DNA of 64,000 nucleotides from the NCBI RefSeq assembly GCF_040581405.1, contig NZ_CP137157.1:1802001-1866000 (forward strand). Reading direction: 5' to 3'. This document shows, one piece after another, positions 9,700 to 27,663 of the stretch. The position numbers were made by a program, and so were the translations under genes. Origin of the DNA: Komagataeibacter sucrofermentans DSM 15973 (GTDB lineage: Bacteria > Pseudomonadota > Alphaproteobacteria > Acetobacterales > Acetobacteraceae). The notes under the pieces were generated by a model. That model had not been told where the DNA came from and did not search any database. It saw only the letters and a list, made by a program, of their open reading frames with translations. Each line of letters begins with the position of its first letter. Within the stretch, counting starts at the first letter, position 1.

Positions 9700-11118
9700 T
9701 CACTCCGTCGTTTTTCCCTGCCCTGTGTTCCGCATGGCCACAGCGTAAACAAGCCCTGTCAGGGCAAGCCCGAACACCCATGACAGATCTGCCCCCCCGA
9801 ATGCATGGGCAAATGGTCCCATATACAGTTCATTAGCCAGAAACGGCACCTGCACAACCAGCCCGAACAGGTATGACAGCATAGCCCTGAGGTTAAAACG
9901 ACCATACACGCCCCCATCCGCGGCAAAGAAAGATGGCAGGTCATAGTTGCCATGGCGCAACAGGTAATAGTCGACAAGATTGATGGCCGACCAGGGCACC
10001 ATGATCGCCATGAGGAGTTCGAGGAAGCCTGCATAGGCCTTGTCGAACTGATCGGACATGACCACCGCCAGCATGGTCGCCACCAGCAGCAGCGTGATCG
10101 AGATCGCCACACGCCAGCCACGCCCGAAATGCCGGTGCGGGGCCAGGGTCTGGAACACGGTAATGGAAGAAAGCGCCCCGCAATAAAGGTTCATGGCATT
10201 GGCGATGATGATGCCCAGCGACAGCACGCCCAGAACTGGCGCGGCCAGCCAGCCGAGTTCATTGCCCAGCACGGCGGCAACATTGGCGCCCGTTACCACG
10301 CCGATCAGCATGGCGACGAACGACCCCAGCACGCAGCCCCAGTAAGTGGCATGGAAGGCCTGCCGCTCCCCCGCCCGGCTGCTCGGCAGGTAGCGTGAAT
10401 AGTCCGAAACATAGGGCGCGTAGGCAATCTGCCACAGGGCCGCAAGTGACATGGCACCCAGAAAACCCGGCACCGTGTCATGCCCGTCACTGACCCACCA
10501 CGCGGCGGTGCGCGGTATATGATACAACGCCACCACAAGGCATGTCAGCACGGCCGCACCGCACAGCACCGAGGCGATGCGGGTGGCACCGTGGATGGCC
10601 CTGTAGCCCAGCACCGCCGGCACCAGCGAGAGGAACGCCACGATCAGCATGCCCACCGTGCCACCCATATGCCCGTTCATCGTGGCCAGCCCCTGCGCCC
10701 CCAGCACAAGGTTGGAGGCGGAAAACCCCAGGAACATGATGACGATCAGGGCCGTCATGGGGGCCGCGCCGATCATGCCGAACTGCGCGCGCGACTGCAC
10801 CATCTGCGGTATGCCGAGATGCGGCCCCTGCGCCGCATGCAGCGCCATGAACAGCCCCCCTACCAGGTTGCCCACGATGGCCGCGATAATGGCGGTCAGC
10901 GGGGTCAGGTGAAATGTCCCGCGCATGACGCCGCCTGTCGTTACGGTCAGCATGGTCATGTTGGCGCCAAACCACAGGGCCAGCAGGTCACGCGCACGGC
11001 CGTGCCGTTCCGATGCCGCAACCGGATAGATCGTCTGGAATTCGACGGTTTTCTCGGGCAGGAAATCTTCGGGCAGTTCGGTAAGCTGTTCGATTTTTGT
11101 ACCTTGCGTGGTCATCAT
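9700..11118 (-). CDS. NCS1-family permease (purine/cytosine permease type)
   Basis: A 472-residue inner-membrane protein with about twelve hydrophobic segments, of the nucleobase:cation symporter-1 family (CodB and related carriers). The start region WFGANMTMLTVTTG and the later NAMNLYCGALSS stretch are family hallmarks. It is the last gene of a minus-strand set (oxygenase, binding protein, permease, ATPase, then this gene, 30 bases after the ATPase). NCS1 carriers move planar nitrogen heterocycles such as cytosine, allantoin and hydantoins. Its position at the edge of a histidine-utilisation locus suggests an imidazole compound such as urocanate as substrate; this is inference. Confidence 0.88.
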   Translation of the reverse strand: MMTTQGTKIEQLTELPEDFLPEKTVEFQTIYPVAASERHGRARDLLALWFGANMTMLTVTTGGVMRGTFHLTPLTAIIAAIVGNLVGGLFMALHAAQGPHLGIPQMVQSRAQFGMIGAAPMTALIVIMFLGFSASNLVLGAQGLATMNGHMGGTVGMLIVAFLSLVPAVLGYRAIHGATRIASVLCGAAVLTCLVVALYHIPRTAAWWVSDGHDTVPGFLGAMSLAALWQIAYAPYVSDYSRYLPSSRAGERQAFHATYWGCVLGSFVAMLIGVVTGANVAAVLGNELGWLAAPVLGVLSLGIIIANAMNLYCGALSSITVFQTLAPHRHFGRGWRVAISITLLLVATMLAVVMSDQFDKAYAGFLELLMAIMVPWSAINLVDYYLLRHGNYDLPSFFAADGGVYGRFNLRAMLSYLFGLVVQVPFLANELYMGPFAHAFGGADLSWVFGLALTGLVYAVAMRNTGQGKTTE

Positions 11119-11148
11119 GAAACGGCCCTGTCGGAAAAACGGTTCTGG

Positions 11149-11928
11149 TCACCCATGAGCAACCTCCATGAAGGTCTGGATACGCGGTGGTGCATTGGGG
11201 CCGAATATGTCGGCGGCTGATCCGCTCTCCGCTATGCGCCCCCCTTCGCAGAAGTGGACCGTATGGGCGATCGAGCGCACGAAACGCATTTCATGGGTCA
11301 CGATCAGCATGGTCATCCCCTCTGCCGACAGGTCGCGGATCACGCCCTGCACCTCCTGCACGAGTTGCGGGTCAAGTGCGCTGGTCGGCTCATCAAAAAG
11401 AATCAGCGCAGGCGACATGGCCAGCGCCCGCGCAATGGCGACGCGCTGCTTCTGCCCGCCCGAAAGCTGGTCGGGATAGAAATCCGCGCGCTCCAGCATG
11501 CCCACGCGCGCCAGGCAGTCGCGGGCCCTGTCGCGGGCCTCGGCCCGGCCACGACGCAGCACGACCACCTGGCCCTCCACCACGTTTTCCATGACCGTGC
11601 GGTGCGAAAACAGGTTGAAGTGCTGGAACACCATGGGCATGCGCGCCCGCGCCGCCTGCAATACACGCGGCTGAGCGATGCGGAAGATGTTGCTGTTGCC
11701 ATCTTCCGCGCACAGGAACTGCCCGAAGAACGTGATCTCCCCGCCATCGGGCCGCTCCAGAAAATTGAGGCAGCGCAGGATGGTGGACTTGCCCGTGCCG
11801 CTCGGGCCGATCAGGCAGGCGATCTCGCCTTCATGCAGGGACAGGTCCACCCCCCTGAGAACGGCGTTGCCCTGAAAGGTCTTGCGCAACTGGCGCACTG
11901 TCAGGACGGGAGGCTTTGAGCCGGTCAT
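11149..11928 (-). CDS. amino-acid ABC transporter ATP-binding protein
   Basis: 259 residues counted from the ATG at 11928, which overlaps the permease stop by four bases (ATGA); an upstream in-frame start at 11997 would lie deep inside the permease gene. Walker A is GPSGTGKST, the signature is LSGGQKQRVAIARAL and Walker B is LILFDEPTSALDP. The protein belongs to the HisP/GlnQ group that powers polar amino-acid import. One insertion is seen between Walker A and the Q-loop (around CAEDGNSNIFRIAQPR), also known in HisP-like members. It is translationally coupled to the permease gene. Confidence 0.93.
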   Translation of the reverse strand: MTGSKPPVLTVRQLRKTFQGNAVLRGVDLSLHEGEIACLIGPSGTGKSTILRCLNFLERPDGGEITFFGQFLCAEDGNSNIFRIAQPRVLQAARARMPMVFQHFNLFSHRTVMENVVEGQVVVLRRGRAEARDRARDCLARVGMLERADFYPDQLSGGQKQRVAIARALAMSPALILFDEPTSALDPQLVQEVQGVIRDLSAEGMTMLIVTHEMRFVRSIAHTVHFCEGGRIAESGSAADIFGPNAPPRIQTFMEVAHG

Positions 11929-12635
11929 CGCGCGCCCTCCTTGTCCATGGTCAATGGCACGCTGAGGGTGGCACGCCGGTTGGATGGGGTAAGCCACAGT
12001 TCAACGTAGCGGATGATCCGGGCACTGATAAAGCTCATCATGAAGTAGATGATCGCCACCATGATATATGTGTCCATGCTGTCAAACGTGTCGGAAATGA
12101 CAATCGTGGCATGGCGGAGCAGTTCATTGACCGAAATGAACGATACCAGCGAACAGTCCTTGAGCAGCGCGATGAAATACCCCCCCAGCGTTGGCAGGGA
12201 AGCCAGCGCCGCCTGCGGAATGATGACCCGGCAATAAACGGCCACGGGCGACATGCCAAGCGAGATGGCGGCCTCACGCTGACCTTTATCAACCGCCACG
12301 ATCGCCGCGCGGAACACCTCCGACAGGTAGGCGGCGAGGTTGAGCGTAAGCCCTGCAATGCCCGCCCAGAACGCACTCAGCACGATCCCGGCTTCGGGCA
12401 GGGAAAAATAGATCAGCAGCAGTTGCACGATCAGCGGCGTATCGCGCACGACCTCGACAAACGCATCAAGCGGCCAGCGCAGCGTGCGCCGGGGCGACAG
12501 CCGGCCCACCGCAAGGAAAAAACCCAGCAGCGTGCCCAGCAGCATCGAGATCAGCGAAAGCTCGACCGTAACCAGCGCGCCCTGAAGCAGGAAAGGGAAA
12601 TGCTCTGGCACCGCATAAAAGAAAAAATTGTACAT
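11925..12635 (-). CDS. amino-acid ABC transporter permease
   Basis: A 236-residue inner-membrane permease of the HisM/GlnP group. It has about five membrane spans; the cytoplasmic coupling loop (EAA motif) reads REAAISLGMSPVAVYCRVIIPQA, and VRDTPLIVQLLLIYF is typical of this group. It follows the binding-protein gene by nine bases and overlaps the ATPase gene. Only one permease gene is present, so the channel would be a homodimer. Confidence 0.92.
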   Translation of the reverse strand: MYNFFFYAVPEHFPFLLQGALVTVELSLISMLLGTLLGFFLAVGRLSPRRTLRWPLDAFVEVVRDTPLIVQLLLIYFSLPEAGIVLSAFWAGIAGLTLNLAAYLSEVFRAAIVAVDKGQREAAISLGMSPVAVYCRVIIPQAALASLPTLGGYFIALLKDCSLVSFISVNELLRHATIVISDTFDSMDTYIMVAIIYFMMSFISARIIRYVELWLTPSNRRATLSVPLTMDKEGAR

Positions 12636-12644
12636 GCCGCCCGC

Positions 12645-13511
12645 TCAGTCCTGTCCGGATGTTTTTACGAGATGGTCCTGCTGCGGTTCCCACACGCCGT
12701 AACGTTTCAGGATCGTGCGGATCGTTCCGTCTTCATGCATATCCTCCAGGGCGTGGTTTATCACGGCGAGCAGGTCGGTGCAGGCAGGCCGCACCACAAC
12801 CCCCTCGCTGCCCAGCCTGTAGGGGGCGGCGGCCTGAGCGCTGGCCCATTTCGGCTTGGGTGTATAGAAAATCGGCCCGCCCACCGTGCGCAGGCCCGCA
12901 AAATGCGCCTGCTGCGCGTGCAGCGTGCCCTGATCGACCACAACCGCATCGATCTGCTTGTTGCGCAGGGCAAGGAAGGGGTCGCCAAACGTATCGTAAT
13001 CCGCGACCGCGGCCCCCATCCCCTGCTCCACCAGGCGGTGGGCCGTGGCGGAATCATTGGTGCCCAGCACGGAACCGATGGTCCTGCCCTTCAGGTCGGC
13101 AAGGGAGTGGATGGGCGAATCCTGCGGCACGATCACGTAATCGTACAGCATGAAATACGGCATGGAAAAGCGCACATGCCCCATCACCTCACGCTCCTGC
13201 GTGATATGCACGTCGGACAGCACGATATCCCACCGCCTGGCCTTGAGGCCCGGCACGATGGTGGACCATTCCGTAATGACAAACTCCGAGCGGGGCAGCC
13301 CCATGCGGCGCGTCAGTTCGGCCAGGAGGTCGGCGTCAATGCCATGATAGACGCCATCATGGTCCTGCCACAGGGAGGGATGCGCGCCAAGCAGCCCGTT
13401 GCCCACCCGCATGACCCCTGCCTTGCGGATATCATCCAGACATCCCGCCCGGGCACCTGCCGGCACGCCAGCCGCCAGGAGGCCCAACACAAGCAGGAGG
13501 GGCGCCCTCAC
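12645..13511 (-). CDS. periplasmic amino-acid-binding protein (family 3)
   Basis: A 288-residue solute-binding protein with a signal peptide at about 1-22 (LLLVLGLLAAGVPAGARA). The segments MRVGNGLLGAHPSLW, YHGIDADLLAELTRRMG and GRTIGSVLGTNDSAT follow the SBP family 3 pattern (HisJ, GlnH and related proteins). The GTG start overlaps the stop of the upstream oxygenase gene by four bases (GTGA), so translation is coupled. Binding specificity is not readable; the hut context suggests histidine or an imidazole derivative. Confidence 0.88.
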   Translation of the reverse strand: MRAPLLLVLGLLAAGVPAGARAGCLDDIRKAGVMRVGNGLLGAHPSLWQDHDGVYHGIDADLLAELTRRMGLPRSEFVITEWSTIVPGLKARRWDIVLSDVHITQEREVMGHVRFSMPYFMLYDYVIVPQDSPIHSLADLKGRTIGSVLGTNDSATAHRLVEQGMGAAVADYDTFGDPFLALRNKQIDAVVVDQGTLHAQQAHFAGLRTVGGPIFYTPKPKWASAQAAAPYRLGSEGVVVRPACTDLLAVINHALEDMHEDGTIRTILKRYGVWEPQQDHLVKTSGQD

Positions 13512-14323
13512 GCCGGCGCCGTATAAAGGACTGGAAAATCGGGTCCTGCCAGCGAGTCACCATCCTTCAGGGCCAGATGCGCGAAAGGCGGCGAGCCTTT
13601 CCCCCCGCGTGAGGCGAAGACCGCGTCATCCCCCACCAGCCGCGCCGAGAAAACGCGCCGCCGGTTGACCGCCCCCGTGGTCGCCGCAGCACCATGAACG
13701 GTGCCAAAGTCAAACGCCACGGCATCACCCGGCGCCATGTCCCAGCTCAGGATAGGGTAGTCGCCACGGGCCGAATCGATATCGGGCATGGGCGGGCTGT
13801 CATCAACCGCGTAAAGGGGCGTCCCGTCAAAGCGCATGGGCCTGTGGTCGTACCCCCATCGGTGCGAGCCGGCCACGCATTCCAGCGCGCTGGCTGCGGG
13901 CACCGGATCGAGGGGGATCCAGAAGCTCACGGTCTGCGGGCCGCTGGCGCAGTAATAGGGGCGGTCCTGATGCCACGGGGTGACAAGCGACGTGCCCGGC
14001 TCCTTGACCAGCACATGGTCATGGAAAAAACGCACCTCATGCGCGCCCAGCAGTTCTCCCGCTATCTGGCCGAGGGGAGAATGCTCGACAAAATCGCGGA
14101 ATTCAGGGATACGCTGCCAGTTGCATAGATCCTGAAAAAAGGGGGCTGAGCCATCTGGCTGGTAGGAACGTTCAAGGGGGCTGGGGTCCGCCATCAGGCG
14201 CTCGACGCCTGCGCGCAGTGTCTCGACCCACGGGGCGAATACGCCACGCAGAACGATTGCACCGTTCTTGCGAAAATCCGCCGCCTGTCCGGTCGGGGGA
14301 AGCATTGATACTGCCTGGTTCAT
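13508..14323 (-). CDS. PhyH-family Fe(II)/2-oxoglutarate dioxygenase
   Basis: A 271-residue protein of the phytanoyl-CoA dioxygenase family. The iron triad is visible as His118-x-Asp120 (PWHQD) and His210 (DFGTVHGA), with arginines at about 222-224 to bind 2-oxoglutarate. Members hydroxylate many small molecules, including amino acids. It is the first gene of the minus-strand operon that continues with an amino-acid ABC transporter and an NCS1 permease, and it overlaps the binding-protein gene by four bases. Being the promoter-proximal gene of an importer operon, it probably acts on the imported compound. The substrate is unknown. Confidence 0.85.
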   Translation of the reverse strand: MNQAVSMLPPTGQAADFRKNGAIVLRGVFAPWVETLRAGVERLMADPSPLERSYQPDGSAPFFQDLCNWQRIPEFRDFVEHSPLGQIAGELLGAHEVRFFHDHVLVKEPGTSLVTPWHQDRPYYCASGPQTVSFWIPLDPVPAASALECVAGSHRWGYDHRPMRFDGTPLYAVDDSPPMPDIDSARGDYPILSWDMAPGDAVAFDFGTVHGAAATTGAVNRRRVFSARLVGDDAVFASRGGKGSPPFAHLALKDGDSLAGPDFPVLYTAPA

Positions 14324-14368: not shown

Positions 14369-14378
14369 TGTCTGTACA
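14369..14378. promoter_or_regulatory. candidate HutC operator upstream of the oxygenase-transporter operon
   Basis: TGTCTGTACA differs by one base from the TGTA-N2-TACA pattern that I recall for HutC of Pseudomonas. It sits in a near-perfect 12-base palindrome (14368-14379), 46-55 bases upstream of the PhyH start codon. Weaker than the three other sites in this locus. Confidence 0.45.
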
Positions 14379-14525: not shown

Positions 14526-14535
14526 TGTATATACA
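14526..14535. promoter_or_regulatory. HutC operator upstream of the HisC-like aminotransferase
   Basis: TGTATATACA is a perfect 10-base palindrome and an exact fit to TGTA-N2-TACA. It ends 22 bases before the aminotransferase start codon, almost the same distance as the identical box before hutU. It lies in the divergent promoter region shared with the PhyH operon. Confidence 0.75.
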
Positions 14536-14557: not shown

Positions 14558-15727
14558 ATGTCCGCCAAGCCCGCTTCCATAGCAAAGGTCAATGGTCCTG
14601 CATGTCGGCCGGAAGTCGCGCAGCTTGCACCCTATAATGCGGGCCTGAGCACGGAAGCCGTCCGGAGCCGTTACGGTGCAACAACCATTACCAAGCTGGG
14701 CAGCAACGAAAACCCTTACGGTCCTGCCCCCGCCGTAGCCACGGCCCTGCAGGAGCTTGTCAAACAGGTCGCACTCTACCCTGAGGCCGACCAGAAGCTG
14801 AAGGCCGCGCTCGCGGCAAGGCTGCATGAGCCCGCGTCATGCATCCTGCTGGGCAACGGCTCCGAGCAGATCATCCGCATGATTGCGGAAGCATATATCA
14901 ACCCCGGTGACCGCGTCGTGACCGTGGTGCCCTCCTTTGGCCTGCACATCATCACCGCCGAGGCCATGGGCGGCAAGGTTGAGGCCGTCCCCATGACACC
15001 GGCCTGTACATTCGACCTGCCCGCGCTGATGAAGGCGGTCTCCACCCCGCTCAAGGTGCTGATCTTCGCCAACCCCTCCAACCCCGTGGGCTGCATGATG
15101 AAGGCGGATGACATGCGCGCGCTGTTCGCCGCCTGCCCGCCCGACTGCCTGATCGTGGTGGATGAAGCCTATTACGAATATGCCCGCTTCGACGCCGCCT
15201 ACCCCGATGCCCGCACCATCCTGCGCGAGCAGGAGCGGCCGTGGTTGGTGCTGCGCACCTTCTCCAAGGCATACGGGCTTGCGGGGCTGCGGATCGGGTA
15301 TGCCATCGGCTCGGACCCGGCAATCATCGATTCGCTTGGCCGAATCCGCGATCCGTTCAACACCAATATCGCAGCACAGCTTGCCGCCCTTGGCGCGCTT
15401 GAAGGGCTGGAGCACATGGACCACAGCACGGGCCGCACCGTTGAGGCACGTGAAAAACTCCGTGGCGAGATGGAAGGAATGGGGCTGACGGTAGCCCCTT
15501 CCTACGGCAATTTCCTGTTCTTCCGGACCGAGCGCCCGTCGGGCGACATCGCCGAAGCCCTTCTGCATCACGGCGTGATCGTCAAACCATGGAAGGAGGC
15601 AGGCTATACACACTGGCTGCGTGTCAGCGTGGGCCTGCCCGATGAGAACGCCCGCTTCCTTGCCGCCCTGCAGGCGGTACTGCACCCTGCTCCTGCCACA
15701 GACACCGTTGGAGAATGCGTGAAATGA
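14558..15727 (+). CDS. HisC-like PLP aminotransferase (probably imidazole-pyruvate/histidine transaminase)
   Basis: A 389-residue class I/II aminotransferase of the histidinol-phosphate aminotransferase group. Motifs include KLGSNENPYGPAP, NPSNPVGCMM, VVDEAYYEYARF and RTFSKAYGLAGLRIGY with the Schiff-base lysine. I chose the ATG at 14558 because AGGAG lies eight bases upstream; a TTG at 14525 would put the HutC box inside the gene. It is the first gene of a plus-strand operon (FAD dehydrogenase, HutD, oxygenase) under a HutC box, with no histidine-biosynthesis gene nearby. A catabolic role on histidine or imidazole-pyruvate is therefore more likely than histidinol-phosphate synthesis; this is inference. 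Confidence 0.8.
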   Translation: MSAKPASIAKVNGPACRPEVAQLAPYNAGLSTEAVRSRYGATTITKLGSNENPYGPAPAVATALQELVKQVALYPEADQKLKAALAARLHEPASCILLGNGSEQIIRMIAEAYINPGDRVVTVVPSFGLHIITAEAMGGKVEAVPMTPACTFDLPALMKAVSTPLKVLIFANPSNPVGCMMKADDMRALFAACPPDCLIVVDEAYYEYARFDAAYPDARTILREQERPWLVLRTFSKAYGLAGLRIGYAIGSDPAIIDSLGRIRDPFNTNIAAQLAALGALEGLEHMDHSTGRTVEAREKLRGEMEGMGLTVAPSYGNFLFFRTERPSGDIAEALLHHGVIVKPWKEAGYTHWLRVSVGLPDENARFLAALQAVLHPAPATDTVGECVK

Positions 15728-17124
15728 CGACAGCCGACAGCATCGAACAGGCGATTGCCGAACTGCTTCCCCATTTTGGCGAACGCCTGTCACGCAGCCA
15801 GTCGGTGTGCGAGCATCATGGCCATGGCGAGGGCTATCACGCCCAACATGCGCCCCAGGCTGTCATCTTTGCCGAAACCACGGAGGACGTGGCCCACGCC
15901 CTGCGCGTCTGCAACGCCCACCGTGCGCCAGTCATACCCTTTGGGGCAGGCACGTCGCTTGAGGGGCAGGTCAACGCCATCGAAGGCGGCATATCCATAG
16001 ACCTGTCGCGCATGACCGGCCTGCTGGAACTCAATACAGGCGACATGGACTGCCGTGTGCAGGCGGGCATCACGCGGCAGGATCTCAACCTGCTGCTGCG
16101 TGATGAAGGGCTGTTCTTCCCCGTTGATCCGGGTGGGGAGGCAACCATTGGCGGCATGTGCGCCACGCGCGCGTCGGGCACGGGGGCCGTGCGTTATGGC
16201 ACGATCCGTGAAAACGTGCTGGGCCTGACCGTGGTGCTCGCCGATGGGCGCATCATGCGCGTGGGCCGCCGGGTGCGCAAATCCGCCATGGGCTATGACC
16301 TGACGCACCTCATGATCGGCTCGGAAGGCACGCTAGGCATCATTACGGAGGTGCAGTTGCGCCTGCATGGCATACCCGAGACCATGGCTGCCGCCGTCTG
16401 CCAGTTCGAGACACTGGCCGACTGCGTGGAAACGGCCGTGCAGGTCATGCAGATGAGCGTGCCGATCGGGCGCATGGAACTGCTGGATGATGTGCAGATG
16501 GATGCCTGCATCCGCTACGCCAAGCTCGATGGCTACCGCCCCATCCCCACCATGTTCTTTGAATTTGAAGGGGGGCCGGAAGCCGTTCGTGAGCAGATCG
16601 CGACAGTCGAGGCCATTGCCGACGACAATAACGGCTCAGCCTTTACATGGAGCACCCAGGCACAGGAACGCGCGGCATTGTGGAAGACACGCCACGCCGT
16701 ATTCTGGGCCTGCCTGGCCTATCGCCCGGGATATACCGGCATCTCGACTGATGCGATCGTGCCCATTTCCGCCCTGACCGAAATGATTTTGGGCGCCAAG
16801 CACGATATCGAGGAATCCGGCATTACCGCCCCCATCGTGGGCCATATCGGTGATGGCAATTTCCATACCGTCATGCTTGTGCCGCCGGGCGAGGCGGAAG
16901 TGGAAAAAGCCCGTGCGCTGGACCACAAGATCATCGCCCGCGCGCTCTCTCTTGGCGGGTCGGCCAGTGGCGAGCATGGCGTGGGCCTGGCCAAGATCGG
17001 GTTCATGCCAGCCGAGCATGATGCGGTAGCACTTGATGTCATGCGCACGATCAAGCGCGCGCTTGACCCGAACAATATCCTCAACCCGGGCAAGCTGCTT
17101 CCACCCCCTGCCCCGCCATGCTGA
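15724..17124 (+). CDS. FAD-linked D-2-hydroxyacid dehydrogenase (LDHD/GlcD type)
   Basis: 466 residues from the ATG at 15724, which overlaps the previous stop (ATGA) and has GGAG 11 bases upstream; an ATG at 15715 is a weaker choice. The FAD-binding PCMH domain covers about 40-220 (VIPFGAGTSLEGQ, VDPGGEATIGGMCATRASGT, MIGSEGTLGIITE). The C-terminal domain carries HIGDGNFHTV and SGEHGVGLAK, which hold the metal and substrate residues in D-lactate and glycolate dehydrogenases. Such enzymes oxidise D-2-hydroxyacids to 2-oxoacids and pass electrons to cytochrome c, quinone or a flavoprotein. Coupled to the HisC-like aminotransferase, D-imidazolyl-lactate is a plausible substrate. Confidence 0.85.
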   Translation: MTTADSIEQAIAELLPHFGERLSRSQSVCEHHGHGEGYHAQHAPQAVIFAETTEDVAHALRVCNAHRAPVIPFGAGTSLEGQVNAIEGGISIDLSRMTGLLELNTGDMDCRVQAGITRQDLNLLLRDEGLFFPVDPGGEATIGGMCATRASGTGAVRYGTIRENVLGLTVVLADGRIMRVGRRVRKSAMGYDLTHLMIGSEGTLGIITEVQLRLHGIPETMAAAVCQFETLADCVETAVQVMQMSVPIGRMELLDDVQMDACIRYAKLDGYRPIPTMFFEFEGGPEAVREQIATVEAIADDNNGSAFTWSTQAQERAALWKTRHAVFWACLAYRPGYTGISTDAIVPISALTEMILGAKHDIEESGITAPIVGHIGDGNFHTVMLVPPGEAEVEKARALDHKIIARALSLGGSASGEHGVGLAKIGFMPAEHDAVALDVMRTIKRALDPNNILNPGKLLPPPAPPC

Positions 17125-17699
17125 ACATCGCGGCACTGGATGCCTTCGCACCACGCCCATGGCGCAACGGGCGGGGCACCACGCGCGAAATCATGGCGCA
17201 TGATGCCCACCCGGCGCATTTCTGGCGCGTGAGCGTGGCAAGCATCGTGGGCGATGGTCCTTTTTCACTTTTTCCCGGTCTCGTGCGCCATCTGGCGCTT
17301 GCCTCCCCCGGCAGGCTGACACTGACCGGGATCGCACCGGGCGGCACGACACTGGAGCGCCCGGGCGACACCATCCGTTTTGACGGCGGCCTTGCGGTCA
17401 GTGCGTCATGCCATGGGCAGGCCGTGCAGGCCTTCAATCTCATGGCGGCACCCGCCGTGCCCGCGCGGCTGGAACGCTTTCAGGCTCCCTTCCGCCTGGA
17501 ACATGCCCATGCGGTCGCCCTCCTTCCCCTTCAGGGTGAATGGCGGACTGAAGGCTGCGACCGCACGCTGCCGACAGGCATGATTGCATGGGGGCAAACC
17601 ACCAGCGCGACCCGTGTCGCGCCCGTTGCCCCCGCCCTGCCCGCCTGTCTGCTGGCTGTCATCATTTCAACATCCCAAACTGAGAAAGTCATGCCATGA
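17118..17699 (+). CDS. hutD: HutD family protein
   Basis: A 193-residue cupin-like protein of the HutD/Ves family. The start PRPWRNGRGTTREI and the segments FWRVSVASIVGDGPFSLFPG and GDTIRFDGGLAV match family features. HutD is found in hut loci of many proteobacteria; in Pseudomonas it has been proposed to limit hut expression, perhaps by binding a pathway intermediate. It overlaps the upstream dehydrogenase by seven bases and the downstream oxygenase by four, so the operon is tightly coupled. Its presence in this unit rather than next to hutC is good evidence that the unit belongs to histidine metabolism. Confidence 0.85.
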   Translation: MLNIAALDAFAPRPWRNGRGTTREIMAHDAHPAHFWRVSVASIVGDGPFSLFPGLVRHLALASPGRLTLTGIAPGGTTLERPGDTIRFDGGLAVSASCHGQAVQAFNLMAAPAVPARLERFQAPFRLEHAHAVALLPLQGEWRTEGCDRTLPTGMIAWGQTTSATRVAPVAPALPACLLAVIISTSQTEKVMP

Positions 17700-18844: not shown

Positions 18845-19987
18845 TCAGAACCGCCACAGCGCCTTCTGGCCTGCTGCGCGCACGGCCTCGATATCACGCA
18901 GCCCCGCCAGGGCCATGACATCGCGCGTTTCCTGCGCCAGTACGTCAAGGGCGGCCGCCACGCCGGGCGCGCCACCTGCGGCAAGCCCCCAGACCCACGG
19001 GCGACCAATGGATACCGCATGCGCGCCAAGCGCCAATGCCGTCACCACATCCCCACCACGGCGGATGCCGCTATCAAGCATGATATCCAGCCGCCCGCCC
19101 ACCGCGGCCGCAATGCCGGGCAGCACGTCAAGTGTGGCGGGGGCAGGATCCATCTGGCGGCCACCATGGTTGGACACCACAATGCCATCCGCCCCGGCAT
19201 CTGCCGCACGCACGGCATCTTCAGGGCACATCACGCCCTTGACCACCAGGGTGCCATTCCAGTTTTCGCGCAGCCATGCCAGGTCATCCCAGTCCAGCGT
19301 GGGATCGATCTGGGCGGCAACGTCACGCGCCTGGCCCATGACGTTACGCGCGGTTGTATAGGCATCAATATTGCCCACCACGGGCATGCCGCCACGCAAC
19401 AGGCCCGCAACCCAGGCCGGATGGTTCAGCAGGCCCGCCATCTGCAATACGGTAGGGCGGGAAAGATGCCGGAAGCCATTGCGCACATCGCGCTCACGCA
19501 CGGGGGTGATGGCTGTATCAACGGTCAGGATAATGCCGGTTATGCCACACGCCCTTGCACGGGCCAGCATGTCGCGTGTCAGGGCACGGTCGCGCAGCAC
19601 GTAAATCTGCGCCATCACATCCGCGCCCGTTGCGGCCACTTTTTCCATGGGGGCGATGGAAAAGGTGGAAACGCCCATGCCCACGCCACGACTGCGCGCC
19701 GCATGGGCGGCGCCACGCTCGCCATGGTGGTGGAACATGCCCGCAAACCCGACCGGAGCGAGAAAGACCGGCAGCTTCCATGTCCGGCCAAAGCAGCGCG
19801 TGGTCAGGTCAATGGCTGACACATCGCGCAGGGCATGGGGCACGACGCCCCAGCGGGCAAAACTGTTACGGTTGCGGGCCATGGTGCGTTCACCATGGGC
19901 ACCGCCATCAATATAATCGGCAAATAGCCGGGGAAGACGACGGCGCGCCTTTCGCGCAGAGGCGATGAACGCGCCGTCATCCACCAT
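18845..19987 (-). CDS. FMN-dependent L-2-hydroxyacid oxidase/dehydrogenase (LldD family)
   Basis: A 380-residue (beta/alpha)8 flavoenzyme. Visible are the FMN region FLAPVGFAGMF, Lys250 (VVKGVM), the catalytic His274 with Arg277 (SNHGGRQMD) and the phosphate-binding stretch DSGIRRGGDVV followed by IGRPWVWGLAAGG. The family oxidises L-lactate, glycolate, mandelate and other L-2-hydroxyacids. The start codon overlaps the hutH stop by one base, so it is translated with hutU-hutH. No lactate permease or regulator is near. The context suggests L-imidazolyl-lactate (or another hut-linked hydroxyacid) rather than lactate; this is inference. Confidence 0.88.
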   Translation of the reverse strand: MVDDGAFIASARKARRRLPRLFADYIDGGAHGERTMARNRNSFARWGVVPHALRDVSAIDLTTRCFGRTWKLPVFLAPVGFAGMFHHHGERGAAHAARSRGVGMGVSTFSIAPMEKVAATGADVMAQIYVLRDRALTRDMLARARACGITGIILTVDTAITPVRERDVRNGFRHLSRPTVLQMAGLLNHPAWVAGLLRGGMPVVGNIDAYTTARNVMGQARDVAAQIDPTLDWDDLAWLRENWNGTLVVKGVMCPEDAVRAADAGADGIVVSNHGGRQMDPAPATLDVLPGIAAAVGGRLDIMLDSGIRRGGDVVTALALGAHAVSIGRPWVWGLAAGGAPGVAAALDVLAQETRDVMALAGLRDIEAVRAAGQKALWRF

Positions 19988-21534
19988 CAGGCGGCCTCGA
20001 CCGTGGGCAGGGACAGGGCGCCCGCCACTGCGGTGTTCAGCACACCGGCGGCGATCAGGGCATTGGCCTTTTCCATGTCGGGGGTGAACAGGCGGTCCTG
20101 CGCGAAGAAGGACACGTGCTCACGCAGGGCGGCGGCGGCCTGCGCCAGTGGCTGCGAGGAGGTTAGCGGCGCAAGGAAGTCAAGCCCCTGCACGGCTGCC
20201 AGATATTCAATGCCAAGAATGGTACGCACGTTGTCATTGATATCAGTTACGCGGCGGGCTGCAAAGGTTGCCATGGAAACATGGTCTTCCTGGTTGGCGG
20301 AGGTGGGCAGGCTGTCCACGCTGGCGGGATGGGCCAGCGTCTTGTTCTCCGACGCCAGCGCCGCCGCCGTGACCTGCGCGATCATGAAGCCCGAATTCAC
20401 GCCACTGTCATTGACCAGGAAGGGCGGCAGGCCGCTCATGCCCGGGTCGACCAGCAATGCGAGGCGGCGCTCGGCGATGGCGCCAATTTCCGATACCGCA
20501 ATCGCCATGAGATCCGCCGCGATGGCGACCGGCTCGGCATGGAAGTTACCGCCCGAAATCATCTCATCCGTATCGGGGAAATGGATGGGATTGTCGGAAA
20601 CCGCATTGGCCTCGATCAGCAGGACGCGGGCGGCATGGCGCAGGCTGTCCAGCGCGGCCCCCATGACCTGCGGCTGGCAGCGCAGGCAGTACGGATCCTG
20701 CACGCGCTCATCATCCACCTCATGGGAGGAACGGATGGCCGAACCTTCCATCAGCTTGCGATAGACCGCGGCACATTCGATCTGCCCCTGCTGGCCGCGC
20801 AGCGTGTGCAGGCGCGGATCAAAGGGCGCATCCGTGCCACGCGCGGCATCAAGCGTGAGCGAGCCGGTAACAAGGCCCGCCTGGAACAGGCGCTCGGCAT
20901 CGAACAGGGCAATAATGGCCAGTGACGTGGAAACCTGCGTGCCGTTGAGCAGCGCCAGCCCTTCCTTGGGGCCAAGGACAACCGGCTCCAGGCCCGCAGC
21001 CTTCAGCGCCGCAGCACCCGGCAGGCGCTCCCCCCTGTAGAAGGCTTCGCCCTCACCGATCAGGACGGCGGTCATGTGCGCGAGCGGGGCCAGATCGCCC
21101 GATGCGCCAACCGATCCCTTTTCGGGGATGACCGGAATGAGCCCCTTGGCCAGCATGTCGAGCAGGAGCTGCACGACCTCCGGCCGCACGCCCGAAAAAC
21201 CACGCCCGAGCCCGTTGGCCTTGAGCAGCATGATGAGGCGCACCACGCGCTCGGGCAGCGGCTTGCCGATGCCGGCCGCGTGGCTGAGAACCAGGTTGCG
21301 CTGGAGATCGCGCAGCCGGTCATCGGGGATGCGGGTCTTGGCCAGTTTGCCAAAACCGGTGTTGACACCATAAACCGCAGCGCCACCGGCCACGATCCGC
21401 TCGACCGAACGAGCGGCCGCCGCCAGGGTGGCCTGGGCCTCGGGGCTCAGGGTGACATCCATCCCCTCGAACACAAAGCGGCGCAGGGTAGCCAGATCAA
21501 GCTGACCGGGATGAAGAACGAGATTTTCTGACAT
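19987..21534 (-). CDS. hutH: histidine ammonia-lyase
   Basis: A 515-residue cytosolic enzyme that removes ammonia from L-histidine to give urocanate, the first hut step. The Ala144-Ser145-Gly146 triad ([10 protein letters not shown]) forms the MIO electrophile, and Tyr55 (VYGVNTGFG) is the usual active-site tyrosine. Length is normal. It lies six bases after hutU and overlaps the hydroxyacid oxidase gene, so hutU-hutH-oxidase is one unit, probably controlled by the HutC box before hutU. Confidence 0.97.
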
Positions 21535-21540
21535 CTGAAA

Positions 21541-23226
21541 TCAGCCTTTTTTGATCATGGGCAGGTCAAGCCCTTTTTCGTGGGCGCAATCGACCGCGAT
21601 GTCGTAACCCGCATCCGCATGGCGCATCACGCCGGTTGCCGGGTCATTCCACAGCACGCGCTCAAGGCGCTTTGCGGCATCATCCGTGCCATCAGCCACG
21701 ATCACCATGCCTGAATGCTGCGAGAAGCCCATGCCCACGCCACCGCCATGGTGCAGCGAAACCCATGTCGCACCCGATGCGGTGTTGAGCAGCGCGTTGA
21801 GCAGCGGCCAGTCGGACACGGCATCCGAGCCATCACGCATGGCTTCCGTCTCGCGGTTGGGGCTGGCGACAGAGCCACTGTCGAGGTGGTCGCGGCCGAT
21901 CACGATCGGCGCCTTGAGTTCACCCTTGGCGACCATTTCATTGAACGCGAGGCCAAGGCGGTGACGGTCGCCCAGCCCGACCCAGCAGATGCGTGACGGC
22001 AGGCCCTGGAAGTGGATCTTATCACGCGCCATATCGAGCCAGTTGTGCAGGTGCTTGTCGTCGGGCAGCAGTTCCTTCACCTTGGCGTCGGTCTTGTAAA
22101 TGTCTTCCGGGTCGCCCGACAGGGCCGCCCAGCGGAACGGGCCGATACCGCGACAGAAGAGCGGGCGGATATAGGCGGGCACGAAACCGGGGAACTCAAA
22201 AGCCTCCTCGCAGCCAACCTCAAGCGCCATCTGGCGGATGTTGTTGCCGTAATCGAAGGTGGGAATGCCCAGCCGGTGGAAGGCAACCATCGCCTCCACA
22301 TGCAGTTTCATGGATTCCTTGGCTGCTTTCTCGACCGCCGCCGGGTCGGTCACGCGCATCTTTGCCGCCTGGTCCAGCGTCCAGCCTGCCGGGAGGTAGC
22401 CGTTGAGCGGATCATGGGCGGAGGTCTGGTCGGTCACGCCATCGGGGTGGATGCCACGGCGCACCAGTTCGGGGAAAACTTCGGCCGCGTTGCCAAGCAG
22501 GCCGACGGAAACCGGCTTGCCGCTCTTGCATGCTGCATCGATGATCTCGAGCGCTTCATCAAGCGTGTCGACCTTGCGATCGAGATAGCCGGTCTGCAGG
22601 CGCTTCTCGATACGGCTGGGCTCACACTCGACTGCCAGCATGGATGCACCGGCCATGACCGCAGCCAGAGGCTGCGCGCCGCTCATGCCGCCGAGGCCGC
22701 CGGTCAGGATCCACCGGCCGGTCAGGTCGCCACCATAGTACTGGCGCCCCATCTCGACAAAGGTTTCATACGTTCCCTGAACGATGCCCTGGCTGCCGAT
22801 ATAGATCCAGGAACCGGCCGTCATCTGGCCATACATCATCAGCCCGGCACGATCGAGTTCGTTGAACTTATCCCAGTTCGCCCAGTGGGGAACGATGTTG
22901 GAATTGGCGATCAGGACGCGGGGGGCGTTCTCGTGCGTGCGAAATACGCCAACCGGCTTGCCGGACTGCACCAGCAGGGTCTGGTCGGCTTCCAGCGTCT
23001 TCAGCGTTTCGACAATACGGTCGTAGCACTCCCAGTTACGGGCGGCGCGGCCAATACCACCATAGACAACCAGCTCCGAAGGCTTTTCCGCCACTTCGGG
23101 GTCGAGGTTATTCATCAGCATCCGCATAGCAGCTTCAGTCTGCCAGCTTTTTGCCGTGATCTCCGGCCCATGCGCAGCATGGATAATACGATCGTTGGAC
23201 AGACGGGACGAGGTCGGGCTACTCAT
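21541..23226 (-). CDS. hutU: urocanate hydratase
   Basis: A 561-residue enzyme that adds water to urocanate to give 4-imidazolone-5-propionate, using tightly bound NAD as an electrophile. The sequence is full length and highly typical: AANCITGPLG-like features are replaced here by [13 protein letters not shown] and [13 protein letters not shown] in the NAD domain, and the C-terminal [16 protein letters not shown] segment is characteristic. An AAGGTG ribosome site precedes the ATG. The 20-base spacing between start codon and HutC box implies direct repression. It is the first gene of the hutU-hutH-oxidase unit. Confidence 0.97.
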
Positions 23227-23246
23227 GACATCACCTTGAATGTACT

Positions 23247-23256
23247 TGTATATACA
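23247..23256. promoter_or_regulatory. HutC operator upstream of hutU
   Basis: An exact TGTATATACA palindrome, 20 bases before the hutU start and between hutC and hutU. It is inside a wider inverted repeat, AATGTA at 23239-23244 and TACATT at 23253-23258. Confidence 0.78.
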
Positions 23257-23334: not shown

Positions 23335-24060
23335 TCAGGGCCTGTAGCGACCGACAAAGCTGAATCGGCTGCCGGAATAGGTGAAGATGCCTTTCATCAC
23401 GACTCGCCCCTCAACCCATGTGCGCCGCATGAGCTGCAGGCAGGCCTCGGGCTCATCAAGCTCGAGCAGTTCACAGATATCCAGGCTCGGGGTTACCGCG
23501 AACACCACGTGCTCGATCTCCTCGGGGTGGGAAATGCCCGAGAGATGACGGTGCGGATGGGTAAGGGAAAAGTCCTGATCCAGATAATCGGGCGCGAAAT
23601 GGGGCGAGACGAAACGCTCCTCGACCTGCAGCGGCGTATCATCTTCATAATGAACGATGATGGAATGGAAGAGTCGCGCACCGGGGCGCTGCTCGAACGC
23701 TGTTGCGAGATCACTGTTCGCGCGGATCGTATCAAGCGTGATGATGCGCGTGGTGTGCTCATGCCCGTTGGAGGCAATATCATCAGCAATATCACGCAGT
23801 TCCAGCAGTTCCACACGCTGGGCAGGCTCGGCGACGAATGTCCCCACACCCTGCGCGCGCGTGACAAGCCCTTCGGCTGTCAGTTCGCGCAGGGCACGGT
23901 GGACAGTCATGCGCGAGACACCGAGCAGTTCCACCAGTTCACTTTCCGACGGGAGTCGATGACCGATCGCCCACTCACCGGTTTCGATCCGCTCGGTGAT
24001 GTACAGCTTCACCTGCTCGTAACGGGCTGTGGGTTTATCCTTGCTTAAGACCAGTGACAC
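23335..24060 (-). CDS. hutC: GntR-family histidine utilisation repressor
   Basis: A 241-residue regulator with an N-terminal winged helix at about 10-76 (LPSESELVELLGVSRMTVHRALRELTAEG is the recognition region) and a C-terminal UTRA ligand domain. HutC repressors leave DNA when they bind urocanate. The GTG start has AAGGTG upstream. It lies between hutI and hutU on the same strand, with a HutC box just after its stop codon, so part of its transcription may come from the hutI promoter. It is the obvious candidate to bind the palindromes found at four places in this locus. Confidence 0.93.
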   Translation of the reverse strand: MSLVLSKDKPTARYEQVKLYITERIETGEWAIGHRLPSESELVELLGVSRMTVHRALRELTAEGLVTRAQGVGTFVAEPAQRVELLELRDIADDIASNGHEHTTRIITLDTIRANSDLATAFEQRPGARLFHSIIVHYEDDTPLQVEERFVSPHFAPDYLDQDFSLTHPHRHLSGISHPEEIEHVVFAVTPSLDICELLELDEPEACLQLMRRTWVEGRVVMKGIFTYSGSRFSFVGRYRP

Positions 24061-24139
24061 GCAATTACACCTTATTCAGAAGACGTTAGTCTATACTGGC
24101 ATAAGGGAGTGAGTACCATCCAGCGCTGATCTTAACTTT

Positions 24140-25372
24140 TTATTGCGGACAACCACCAAAAATCCGTGCGCTGGGCCTTACCCCTCCGATCCAGTACGAC
24201 AGTTCATGCGGACCGGCGATGTCCCACACCACCATGTCGGCCGCCATGCCCGTGCGCAGTTGCCCGACCGTATGCTCCAGCCCCAGCGCCTTTGCGGCGA
24301 TATGGGTATGCCCGGCCAGGGCCTCCCCCGGTGTCAGGCGGAAGAGCGTGCAGGCCATGTTCATGACCGCCGTGGGGCTGAGCACGGGCGATGTGCCGGG
24401 GTTGCAGTCCGTGGCCAGGCCCATGGGCACGCCATGCTTACGGAACAGGTCCACCGGGGGCTGTTTCGTTTCACGCACAAAATAGAAGGCGCCGGGCAGC
24501 AGCATGGCAACGGTGCCTGCATCCGCCATGGCCTGCACGCTGCTTTCGCTTGCATATTCAACATGGTCAGCCGACAGCGCATGCCACCGCGCCGCAAGCT
24601 TGCCCCCATCGAGATCGGACATCTGGTCGGCGTGCAGGCGCACGGGCAGCTTCCAGCGCTGGGCGGCCTCAAAGATACGCTCGACCTCGGCAGGCTGGAA
24701 GGCAATGGTTTCACAGAACGCATCGACACTGTCGGCCAGGCCGGCTTCCGCCACGGCAGGCAGCATTTCCGTGCACAGGAAGGTGACGTAATCATCCTGC
24801 CTGCCCGCGAATTCCGGCGGCAGCGCATGGGCGCCGAGAAAGGTGGTGTGCACCCGCACCGGCAGGTGCCGGCCTACCGCGCGCGCCACGCGCAGCTGCT
24901 TGAGTTCATCTTCCAGCCGCAGCCCGTAACCGGACTTGATCTCGACGGTGGTCACGCCATTTTCAACAAGGCAGCGCGCACGCCGCAGCGTAAGCCGCAG
25001 CAGTTCCTCCTCGCTCGCATCACGGGTGGCGCGCACGGTGGACAGGATACCGCCACCACGCCGCGCAATCTCCTGATAGGAGACGCCCTGCAACCGCTCC
25101 GCGAACTCGCCGCTCCTGTCACCGCCATAGACCAGGTGCGTATGCGGATCGACCAGGCCTGCGGTCATCCACTGCCCGTTGCACGAGATCACTTCGGTTG
25201 CGAGGCGTTCGGGCTCGCCGGGCAGGTCCGCCTTGGGGCCGACCCATACGATCTGCCCATCCCGGGCGGCAATGGCGCCATCAGGGATATGGCCGAAATC
25301 ATCCCCGCCCGGCTGCCCGGTTCCACTCGCATTGGTTGCCAGATTGACATCGACCCATAACCGATCCCACAT
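24140..25372 (-). CDS. hutI: imidazolonepropionase
   Basis: A 410-residue amidohydrolase that opens 4-imidazolone-5-propionate to N-formimino-L-glutamate. The metal-binding motif [13 protein letters not shown] is near residue 75, the substrate-helix [12 protein letters not shown] is near 110, and [10 protein letters not shown] near 325 carries the last metal ligand. Length is normal. It is divergent from hutF across a 93-base region containing a HutC box. hutC follows 79 bases downstream on the same strand. Confidence 0.96.
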
Positions 25373-25404
25373 GACGCACTCCCATTTCAGCGCTTGACCC
25401 TAAA

Positions 25405-25414
25405 CGTATATACA
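25405..25414. promoter_or_regulatory. candidate HutC operator between hutI and hutF
   Basis: CGTATATACA matches TGTA-N2-TACA with one mismatch at the first base. It lies 33-42 bases from the hutI start and 52-61 from the hutF start, so a single site may control both directions. Confidence 0.65.
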
Positions 25415-25465: not shown

Positions 25466-26866
25466 ATGTCCTTATCGGTACAGATCCAGACCATTTTTGC
25501 CGGGCAGGCTCTCCTGCCCGAGGGGTGGCGTGACAATGTACGCCTCGGCTTTGATGCCAGTGGCCATTTCACCACGATAGAAGCCGACCAGCAGCCTGGG
25601 CCGGATGACAGGCGCGTTGATATCGCCCTGCCGCCCATGCCCAGCCTGCATTCCCATGCCTTTCAGCGCGCCATGGCCGGACTGACGGAAACCCGGCTTG
25701 ATCCGGCCGATTCATTCTGGAGCTGGCGGGAACAGATGTACCGCCTCGCCGCCGTAATCGACCCTGCCACACTCCGCGCCATTGCCGCCCAGCTTTATAT
25801 GGAAATGCTCAAGGCCGGTTATACGCAGGTTGCCGAGTTCCATTACCTGCACTGCGCACCCGACGGGCAGCAATACGCGCAGCCCGCCGAACTGCCGCTT
25901 GCCGTTATTGATGCGGCCCGGGATGCGGGTATTGGCATCACCATGCTGCCTGCCCTGTACCGCCATGCAGGCTTTGGCCGCCCGCTGGCGGCGGAACAGA
26001 AGCGCTTTGCCAGTTCGCCGGCATTCCTTGCGCGGGTCATTACCGAAATTACGGGCCGCCATGCTGGCGATCCTTTGGTGAATGCAGGCATTGCCCTACA
26101 TTCCCTGCGAGCGGCGAGCGGGGATGACATACGCGAAGTGCTTGCCCTGCTGCCTGGTGACATGCCAGTGCACATTCACATTGCCGAACAGATGAAGGAA
26201 GTGGATGACTGCGTTGCCTTCCTTGGCCGCAGGCCGGTTGCCTGGCTGCTCGATGAGATGCCGGTGAATGAGCGCTGGTGCCTGGTCCATGCAACGCATA
26301 TGGATCGGGACGAAACGCTGCGCCTGGCCCGCTCGGGCGCGGTTGCCGGCATCTGCCCCATTACCGAAGCCAATCTGGGCGATGGCTTCTTCCCCTTCAT
26401 GGATTACGTGGATGCGGGGGGCCGCTTTGGTATCGGCAGTGACAGCAATGTGCTGCTTAACGTAGCGGAAGAACTGCGCACACTGGAATACGGGCAGCGC
26501 CTCATATCGCAAAAACGCTGCCGCGCCCTGCCCTCGGACCAGACCGGATCCGTTGGTGGATACCTGTATGCACAGGCCCTGCGGGGCGGAGCGCAGGCCT
26601 GCGCGCATGGTGGCGGCCAACTGGCCGTGGGGCAGCGTGCCGATCTGTGCACGCTGGCCGATACCGCCCTGTCGCTGCCTGACCTGCGAGGCGATACCAT
26701 TATGGATTCACTTGTCTTTGCCCGCGCCACCCTGCCCGTGAGCGATGTACTGTGCGCAGGCCAATGGGTCGTGCGTGAAGGGCACCATATTCACGAAGAA
26801 CGCATTTCGACCGCATTTGGCAAGGCGATTACGACCTTACGTTCCGATCGGAGTTCACTGTCATGA
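25466..26866 (+). CDS. hutF: formimidoylglutamate deiminase
   Basis: 466 residues from the ATG at 25466; an upstream TTG at 25394 is in frame but would include the HutC box. This amidohydrolase converts N-formimino-L-glutamate to N-formyl-L-glutamate plus ammonia. The zinc motif MPSLHSHAFQRAMAG is near residue 50, further ligands are in VHIHIAEQ and LVHATHMD, and GIGSDSNVLL carries the aspartate near 330. It overlaps hutG by four bases. The presence of hutF with hutG shows the five-step pathway, not the one that releases formamide. Confidence 0.94.
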   Translation: MSLSVQIQTIFAGQALLPEGWRDNVRLGFDASGHFTTIEADQQPGPDDRRVDIALPPMPSLHSHAFQRAMAGLTETRLDPADSFWSWREQMYRLAAVIDPATLRAIAAQLYMEMLKAGYTQVAEFHYLHCAPDGQQYAQPAELPLAVIDAARDAGIGITMLPALYRHAGFGRPLAAEQKRFASSPAFLARVITEITGRHAGDPLVNAGIALHSLRAASGDDIREVLALLPGDMPVHIHIAEQMKEVDDCVAFLGRRPVAWLLDEMPVNERWCLVHATHMDRDETLRLARSGAVAGICPITEANLGDGFFPFMDYVDAGGRFGIGSDSNVLLNVAEELRTLEYGQRLISQKRCRALPSDQTGSVGGYLYAQALRGGAQACAHGGGQLAVGQRADLCTLADTALSLPDLRGDTIMDSLVFARATLPVSDVLCAGQWVVREGHHIHEERISTAFGKAITTLRSDRSSLS

Positions 26867-27663
26867 CCCCGCCCGTCTTTACGCATTCACGCGGCACGGC
26901 CCCTGTTCTTGTCACCATTCCGCACGCTGGCACGGCCCTTGCGCCCGGCATGGAAGAAAGCATGACGCCACGCGGGCGGTTACTGCCCGATACCGACTGG
27001 TATATGGAAAAACTCTATACATCGGCTACCGACATGGGCATCGGGGTTATTCGTGCCAATTATTCCCGCTATGTCGTTGACCTCAACCGGGGCGCGGATG
27101 ATGCCACGCTCTATCCGGGGCGGCCCAAGACCGGCCTCGTGCCGGATCTGGCCTTTGATGGCGCCCCGATCTACCAGCCCGGACAGGAACCGGATGAAGC
27201 GGAAATTGGCGAACGCCTGACCCGCTACTGGCAGCCCTATCATGATGCGGTGGCCGAAGAGCTTGCCCGGCTCAAGGCCCGGTGGGGCTGGGCGATATTG
27301 TGGGATGGCCATTCCATCAAGACGGAAATCCCGCGCCTGTTTGAAGGCTGCCTGCCCGACCTGAATTTCGGCACCAACCAGGGGGCCGCCTGCGCGCCAT
27401 CGCTCATCAACAGCGTTGTCAGTCTTGCTGCGCAGGACACGGATTATTCCCATGTCGTCAACGGGCGGTTCAAAGGCGGCTATACCACGCGCCATTATGG
27501 GCAGCCTGAACAGGGCATCCATGCCATACAGCTTGAAAAAGCCCAGAGAATCTATCTCGGCCACGAAGATGCGCCATGGCCGCTTGATACCGACAAGACC
27601 CGCAGGATCTCGGCCCTGATCGGCAGGTTACTGCACCAGGCAACGGCATGGCGGCCTGCGTAA
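26863..27663 (+). CDS. hutG: N-formylglutamate deformylase
   Basis: A 266-residue enzyme that hydrolyses N-formyl-L-glutamate to glutamate and formate, the last hut step. Motifs are VTIPHAGTAL near residue 25, DTDWYMEKLY near 48, and ILWDGHSIKTEIPRLF near 148, which carry the zinc and substrate residues. The start overlaps the hutF stop by four bases (ATGA). A strong hairpin follows the stop codon. Confidence 0.95.
   Translation: MTPPVFTHSRGTAPVLVTIPHAGTALAPGMEESMTPRGRLLPDTDWYMEKLYTSATDMGIGVIRANYSRYVVDLNRGADDATLYPGRPKTGLVPDLAFDGAPIYQPGQEPDEAEIGERLTRYWQPYHDAVAEELARLKARWGWAILWDGHSIKTEIPRLFEGCLPDLNFGTNQGAACAPSLINSVVSLAAQDTDYSHVVNGRFKGGYTTRHYGQPEQGIHAIQLEKAQRIYLGHEDAPWPLDTDKTRRISALIGRLLHQATAWRPA

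Follow-up and report, generated by a model that had tools for sequence, protein, structure and literature searches.

A candidate HutC regulon in Komagataeibacter sucrofermentans joining histidine utilization genes to a putative imidazolelactate salvage module

DNA binding by the repressor HutC of Pseudomonas and its release by urocanate have been published (PMC12977541). HutC regulons that include ATP-binding cassette (ABC) transporters, COG1457 permeases and, in Caulobacterales and Sphingomonadales, TonB receptors have also been described (Leyn et al., 2016, PMC5343134). The locus considered here lies in a stretch of 64,000 nucleotides within the 3.44 Mb genome of Komagataeibacter sucrofermentans DSM 15973 (contig NZ_CP137157.1, positions 1,802,001 to 1,866,000 of the forward strand; hereafter the window, to which all coordinates refer). 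It resembles the HutC regulon of Proteobacteria outlined in those papers (PMC5343134, PMC12977541) in having a HutC repressor, TGTA-N2-TACA operators, the histidine utilization (hut) enzymes HutHUIFG, HutD and lineage-specific transporters. It differs in that aminotransferase, 2-hydroxyacid dehydrogenase and oxygenase genes also follow HutC-type sites, whereas the main text of PMC5343134 has no mention of aminotransferase, hydroxyacid, oxygenase, imidazole or HisC. Judging from gene content and site conservation, the region from ~7100 (perhaps 5855) to 27663 is likely to form one HutC regulon of ~20 kb with six operators, and imidazolelactate salvage may be the core of the added enzymes, a reading to which a probability of about 0.6 is assigned. 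The operators, the hut genes and the genes of the proposed salvage module are as follows, with flavin adenine dinucleotide and flavin mononucleotide abbreviated to FAD and FMN.

9657..9664, HutC core GTCTATAC before the TonB receptor gene, ~120 bp from its start
14369..14378, HutC site TGTCTGTACA before the PhyH gene, one mismatch, 51 bp from its start
14526..14535, HutC site TGTATATACA before hisC2, exact
23247..23256, HutC site TGTATATACA before hutU, exact
24089..24096, HutC core GTCTATAC before hutC
25405..25414, HutC site CGTATATACA between the divergent hutI and hutF, one mismatch
14558..15727, plus strand, hisC2, hut-type HisC-like aminotransferase (TIGR01141 above cut-off)
15715..17124, plus strand, FADdh, FAD-linked D-2-hydroxyacid dehydrogenase of the LDHD/GlcD family (PF01565 and PF02913)
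17118..17699, plus strand, HutD (PF05962)
18845..19987, minus strand, FMNdh, FMN L-2-hydroxyacid dehydrogenase/oxidase (PF01070)
19987..21534, minus strand, hutH, histidine ammonia-lyase (TIGR01225)
21541..23226, minus strand, hutU, urocanate hydratase (TIGR01228)
23335..24060, minus strand, hutC, GntR/UTRA repressor (TIGR02018; PF00392 and PF07702; relative 2pkh)
24140..25372, minus strand, hutI, imidazolonepropionase (TIGR01224)
25466..26866, plus strand, hutF, formimidoylglutamate deiminase (TIGR02022)
26863..27663, plus strand, hutG, N-formylglutamate deformylase (TIGR02017)

The five-step hut pathway is complete, with HutH, HutU, HutI, HutF and a HutG of the deformylase type all above curated cut-offs. 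HutC reaches 262.6 bits against the curated TIGR02018 cut-off of 220 and contains both the GntR and the UTRA domain; a second GntR/HutC-family regulator, at 42218-42886, scores 100 bits and is under the HutC cut-off. The initial annotation had proposed one HutC regulon uniting the hut genes with two extra operons, and this proposal is upheld insofar as its gene list is borne out by profile searches and its sites are kept in relatives. The genes it listed appear to belong to the regulon; its membership was incomplete, since the TonB receptor, FMNdh (absent from that annotation) and hutC itself should be added.

Operators of the TGTA-N2-TACA or GTMTAKAC type, the latter being the published core of the HutC subfamily (PMC4494728), precede hutU, hutC and the hutI/hutF pair. 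The four sites previously reported, at 14369, 14526, 23247 and 25405, are all present in the sequence, and the exact copies do lie 22 bases from the hisC2 start codon and 20 bases from that of hutU; the cores at 9657 and 24089 had not been reported, and the latter probably serves autoregulation of hutC. Because the six sites, which sit 26-120 bp before start codons, precede every inferred transcription unit of the ~20 kb stretch and recur in relatives, control by HutC is likely. The site before the PhyH gene does not fit the GTMTAKAC core.

Motif counts in the window were compared with 100 shuffles, and genome counts with reversed-pattern controls. Exact TGTANNTACA occurs twice in the window against a shuffle mean of 0.17, with 1 of 100 shuffles reaching 2. 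With up to one mismatch there are 12 copies against a mean of 6.48, a number reached by 3 of 100 shuffles, so that a one-mismatch copy alone is weak evidence. Exact TGTATATACA is confined to this locus, its two genomic copies being those at 14526 and 23247. Exact TGTANNTACA is present five times in the genome (46 for the reversed control); of the three copies outside the locus, two lie within open reading frames (ORFs) and the third in an AT-rich intergenic gap. The genome contains 58 copies of the core GTMTAKAC (168 of the control), and five of the 58 fall at 9657-25413, an enrichment with a Poisson P of 9e-6 to 3e-5 for an interval picked after the fact. At eight other genomic places (L152-L159) four sites are within ORFs (L152, L153, L156 and L154, the last containing masked bases) and four between them (L155, L157, L158, L159); since these places cover four of the 53 other GTMTAKAC cores, further, weaker HutC targets elsewhere are possible. 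Promoter and terminator scans gave 7 matches against a shuffle mean of 4.6 and 15 against 12.8, respectively, numbers close to those of shuffled sequence; among them is one weak promoter-like hit with the site at 14369 inside its spacer.

All six sites are kept in four closely related Komagataeibacter genomes (that of the window, G006, G008 and G013), with some variation in flanking bases. Asaia (L104) keeps five, before the genes for the TonB receptor (GTATATAC at 114 bp), PhyH (TTGTCTGTACAA, the same as in the window, 42 bp from the start), hisC2, hutU and hutC. Three Acetobacter loci (L078, L079, L118) keep those before PhyH, as an exact TGTATGTACA located 48-49 bp upstream of the gene (51 bp in the window), and before hisC2; their hutU and hutC genes are outside the stretches examined. 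The PhyH and hisC2 sites thus stand at similar distances in three genera whose flanks differ. A second Komagataeibacter layout (L036, L039, L040, L041), the hisC2 of which is 56-58% identical to that of the window, has TGTATATACA before hisC2 in all four loci; in the three that extend to a TonB receptor gene, an exact TGTA-N2-TACA lies 114-118 bp upstream of it. Of 573 confirmed hisC2-like loci, the best 80 were taken and split at 44% identity into 40 close loci and 40 below that value, the sample to which the hisC2 locus counts that follow refer. The close loci contain 30 copies of TGTATATACA against 0 for the reversed control in 763 kb, and the less similar ones 8 against 0 in 648 kb; L120, itself a hut locus, accounts for four of these. 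Separately, two Komagataeibacter genomes that lack hisC2 (L035 and L043, from G001 and G017) have TGTATATACA before hutI/hutF, together with a hutH-like paralogue of 36% identity.

The linkage of hisC2 to hut genes was counted by tblastn, as automatic gene calling picked shadow ORFs in GC-rich related loci. A hut enzyme is encoded in the stretch examined in 31 of the 40 close loci and 2 of the 40 below, a hut enzyme or HutC-like gene in 35 and 2, and a match to FADdh or FMNdh in 30 and 3; both dehydrogenases accompany hisC2 in 12 close loci. Within the genus, HutC above cut-off and HutI co-occur in the same 10 of 19 genomes, and hisC2 (E<=1e-60) is found in 8 of these 10 and in none of the other nine. 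A maximum-likelihood tree of 83 rows (two loci dropped, one genome in twice) was labeled for hut enzymes within up to ~10 kb, early-ending contigs being scored unlinked. The hisC2 clade, 50 rows with support of 99/95, holds all 37 hut-linked rows, and none of the 33 rows outside it is hut-linked.

Six of nine Comamonadaceae loci share the order hutI-FADdh-hisC2-hutF-hutG on one strand, namely those of Delftia, two Acidovorax, Comamonas, C. testosteroni and Hylemonella (L087, L095, L096, L103, L107, L110), the order being interrupted in L107 by a major facilitator superfamily transporter. In the other three (L092, L100, L135) hisC2 is part of the hut cluster as well, with the genes arranged differently or with no match to FADdh. 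A 1973 study by Coote and Hassall reportedly dealt with the breakdown of imidazolyl-L-lactate by Pseudomonas testosteroni, now Comamonas testosteroni. C. testosteroni JL40 (L107) has FADdh-hisC2 inside its hut cluster, although the strain studied may differ; unlike it, the acetic acid bacteria add the FMN enzyme, two oxygenases and more transporters. The gene set, for which the initial annotation knew of no described hut locus, is not without parallel: related sets are found in Acetobacter, Asaia, Pseudomonas, Halomonas, Pandoraea and Comamonadaceae. As a separate observation, five loci (L080, L084, L093, L099, L101) have hisC2-like and FMNdh genes with a short-chain dehydrogenase/reductase (SDR), a kinase-like protein and GTMTAKAC sites, and four of them a histidinol-dehydrogenase-like protein, named by eye and by likeness to a further Komagataeibacter locus (L162); these clusters are possibly a histidinol-related module.

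The hisC2 product scores 284.9 bits against the TIGR01141 cut-off of 276.55, and falls short of its best-scoring model, PRK05166 (499.9 against 540). It is of the same family as the histidinol-phosphate aminotransferase HisC (EC 2.6.1.9) and likewise above the TIGR01141 cut-off, but it belongs to the hut-linked clade, and the genome encodes another HisC above cut-off elsewhere, outside that clade. The best solved relative of FADdh is the D-lactate dehydrogenase 8jdc (E 9.4e-134). FADdh and FMNdh have the domain make-up of the LDHD/GlcD and LldD families, respectively, but are linked to hut genes and remain under the cut-offs for GlcD (321.1 against 567.9) and LldD (325.3 against 376 and 293.8 against 550); FMNdh belongs by comparison to the FMN hydroxyacid oxidase family, PF01070 placing it at superfamily level only. 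Overlapping gene ends suggest that hisC2, FADdh, hutD and the isopenicillin-N-synthase-like (IPNS-like) gene form one operon, and since FMNdh overlaps hutH by one base, it probably follows hutU and hutH as the third gene of a hutU-hutH-FMNdh operon.

Two oxygenases are encoded among these units.

13508..14323, minus strand, PhyH-type Fe(II)/2-oxoglutarate oxygenase (PF05721)
17696..18652, plus strand, IPNS-like Fe(II)/2-oxoglutarate oxygenase (PF14226 and PF03171)

PhyH relatives are common (64 of 289 genomes). Outside the genus, relatives with 55% identity or more occur in six loci (L190-L195, of which three belong to one genus), all with hut genes: five have hut enzymes (L219, L221-L224) and the sixth (L220) has hutC-like genes, FADdh at 48% and hisC2 at 44%. 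Upstream of PhyH, TGTATATACA is present in L190 and L192, GTATAGAC in L191, a one-mismatch variant only in L193 and L194, and no site in L195; around the next three relatives (L196-L198, 51-54% identity) no hut genes were seen. PhyH is a recurrent hut-linked gene in other alphaproteobacteria, as far as gene neighborhoods indicate. A general link between PhyH and hisC2 was rejected, only G077 of 12 PhyH-bearing genomes having a hisC2, at 43%. FADdh relatives of 48-58% identity are present in all 12, so FADdh alone is no marker. In two further loci (L228, L229) PhyH neighbors a hutH-like gene (~41% identity), with TGTATATACA separating the two, and the stretch examined contains no further hut gene. 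Of the 40 close hisC2 loci, 14 contain the IPNS-like gene, which also lies beside hutC-like genes in L049 and L054. The family was rejected as a hut marker, since only 1 of 22 alphaproteobacterial relatives outside its own genome (L179/L231) is near a hut enzyme, most having been examined over ~4 kb and six over 9.8-19 kb.

The remaining genes of the region concern transport, with one possible exception.

5855..7015, minus strand, M20 peptidase/ArgE-like deacylase (PF01546; PRK07522 above cut-off)
7103..9541, minus strand, TonB-dependent outer-membrane receptor (PF00593, PF07715)
9700..11118, minus strand, NCS1 permease (PF02133)
11149..11925, minus strand, ABC transporter ATPase (PF00005); the ORF opens at 11997 and the start is uncertain
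11925..12635, minus strand, ABC transporter permease (PF00528)
12645..13511, minus strand, periplasmic amino-acid-type binding protein (PF00497)

The M20 deacylase gene follows the TonB receptor gene after 87 bp on the same strand and is possibly the last gene of that unit. The TonB receptor adjoins the NCS1 permease in Komagataeibacter, Asaia and Acetobacter; COG1457 permeases are presumably NCS1-like. The best models for the ABC ATPase are TcyN, EhuA and HisP, each with a score under cut-off. An Arg and an Asp of the binding protein appear conserved in alignments, residues which in such proteins we take to bind the carboxylate and the alpha-amino group.

The presence of D-type and L-type 2-hydroxyacid dehydrogenases and a HisC-family aminotransferase beside hut suggests a route from imidazolelactate through imidazolepyruvate to histidine. 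In the scheme that follows from this, HutC would repress the units in the absence of inducer and be released by urocanate, by analogy with Pseudomonas HutC. The TonB receptor, the ABC importer and the NCS1 permease would carry substrates across both membranes, feeding HutHUIFG. The FAD enzyme would convert D-imidazolelactate, and the FMN enzyme L-imidazolelactate, to imidazolepyruvate, from which the HisC-like transaminase would form histidine with glutamate; HutH would then yield urocanate, which would also induce the regulon. The PhyH and IPNS-like oxygenases would probably admit more histidine-like compounds by hydroxylation or demethylation. Conversion of imidazolepyruvate to histidine by a reversible transaminase (EC 2.6.1.38) has been described in Escherichia coli-based labelling (PMC6096522).

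Several findings weigh against this reading in whole or in part. Among the 40 close hisC2 loci, five (three from Novacetimonas, L101 and L118) show no hut enzyme and no HutC-like gene, and outside Acetobacteraceae the FADdh beside hisC2 is mostly just 30-34% identical to that of the window. Eleven of the 12 PhyH-bearing genomes lack a hut-type hisC2 (seven have matches of 34-37%, four none at E<=1e-50), and the use of imidazolelactate requires neither oxygenase. The binding protein of the ABC system resembles an amino-acid binder, so the cargo may be histidine rather than imidazolelactate. As for the sites, Asaia has only a weak one-mismatch variant within the 310 bp examined before hutI, the three Acetobacter loci have none before the TonB receptor gene, even with one mismatch, and the second Komagataeibacter layout likewise has none before hutU (three loci) or hutC (L036). 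Finally, an older study of Pseudomonas acidovorans, now Delftia acidovorans, is said to have found an NADP-linked (nicotinamide adenine dinucleotide phosphate) imidazolelactate oxidoreductase that was not a flavoprotein, which would speak against flavoenzymes for the L-isomer in that organism.

The alternative that survives best, although unlikely, accepts the regulon and assigns the extra enzymes to another imidazole compound: N-methylated or N-acylated histidine, imidazolepropionate or histidinol. Entry would be by the oxygenases and perhaps the M20 deacylase, with the aminotransferase and dehydrogenases clearing side products or finishing the route. Two 2-oxoglutarate oxygenases and a TonB receptor do exceed the needs of imidazolelactate, PhyH relatives lie in alphaproteobacterial hut loci (L219, L221-L224, L230), two with TGTATATACA upstream, and the likeness of the binding protein to amino-acid binders points the same way, as does the second Komagataeibacter layout, which adds a histidinol-dehydrogenase homologue, a kinase-like protein, an HpaB-like monooxygenase and an ArgE-like deacylase. 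However, hisC2 with FADdh and FMNdh directly fits the interconversion of 2-hydroxyacid, 2-oxoacid and amino acid, and the nine Comamonadaceae loci gave no oxygenase match.

Flow in the outward direction, with HisC2 turning excess histidine into imidazolepyruvate and the flavoenzymes balancing it with imidazolelactate as an overflow or nitrogen-sparing branch, is improbable. Transamination is reversible, and EC 2.6.1.38 is described as such in PMC6096522, but there would be little point in draining histidine at a time when hutH is induced, and the FMN gene overlaps hutH. Moreover, flavin 2-hydroxyacid dehydrogenases normally work as oxidisers. The least probable alternative, that the extra operons just adjoin hut without shared control and that the TGTA-N2-TACA copies are there by chance, could draw on the commonness of the one-mismatch motif (12 in the window against 6.5 expected) and on units in related loci without a recognisable site, but is judged unlikely from conservation and genome counts, given the recurrence of the PhyH and hisC2 sites across Komagataeibacter, Asaia and Acetobacter despite different flanks, the location of both genomic TGTATATACA copies in this locus and the 30 copies against none in the control in the close hisC2 loci.

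Returning to imidazolelactate salvage, no description of the enzyme module was found in the open literature searched, although print or RegPrecise tables could still hold one, and the same literature yielded no gene assignment for imidazolelactate degradation. If the salvage reading is true, it supplies genes for a side pathway of histidine documented mostly in early biochemical work, explains the HisC-annotated aminotransferases and lactate-dehydrogenase-like flavoenzymes in hut clusters of Proteobacteria, and allows their automatic names to be corrected. Two uncharacterised oxygenases also emerge, with substrates narrowed to histidine-like compounds. Transamination between histidine and 2-oxoglutarate is known from older enzymology. 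A tentative extension, for which the odds are below even, is that many Proteobacteria have a broad regulon for imidazole salvage under HutC, in which the HisC-like clade would be a histidine:2-oxoglutarate transaminase acting with D- and L-imidazolelactate dehydrogenases, and PhyH would open a further undescribed histidine-derived substrate (e.g., N-methylhistidine or imidazolepropionate), imported in acetic acid bacteria by the HutC-controlled TonB receptor. A cross-feeding route is possible, since yeasts and animals make imidazole derivatives.

In one locus of a second Komagataeibacter layout (L162, from G005), at 186-19844, a different gene set separates hutGFI from a TonB receptor gene that has an exact TGTA-N2-TACA site. 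It comprises an HpaB-like monooxygenase, a DUF1028-like protein (identified by eye), a LysR regulator, an ArgE-like deacylase, an amidohydrolase, an NCS1 permease, a kinase-like protein, a histidinol-dehydrogenase homologue, an SDR and an alcohol dehydrogenase, and is perhaps another imidazole catabolic module.

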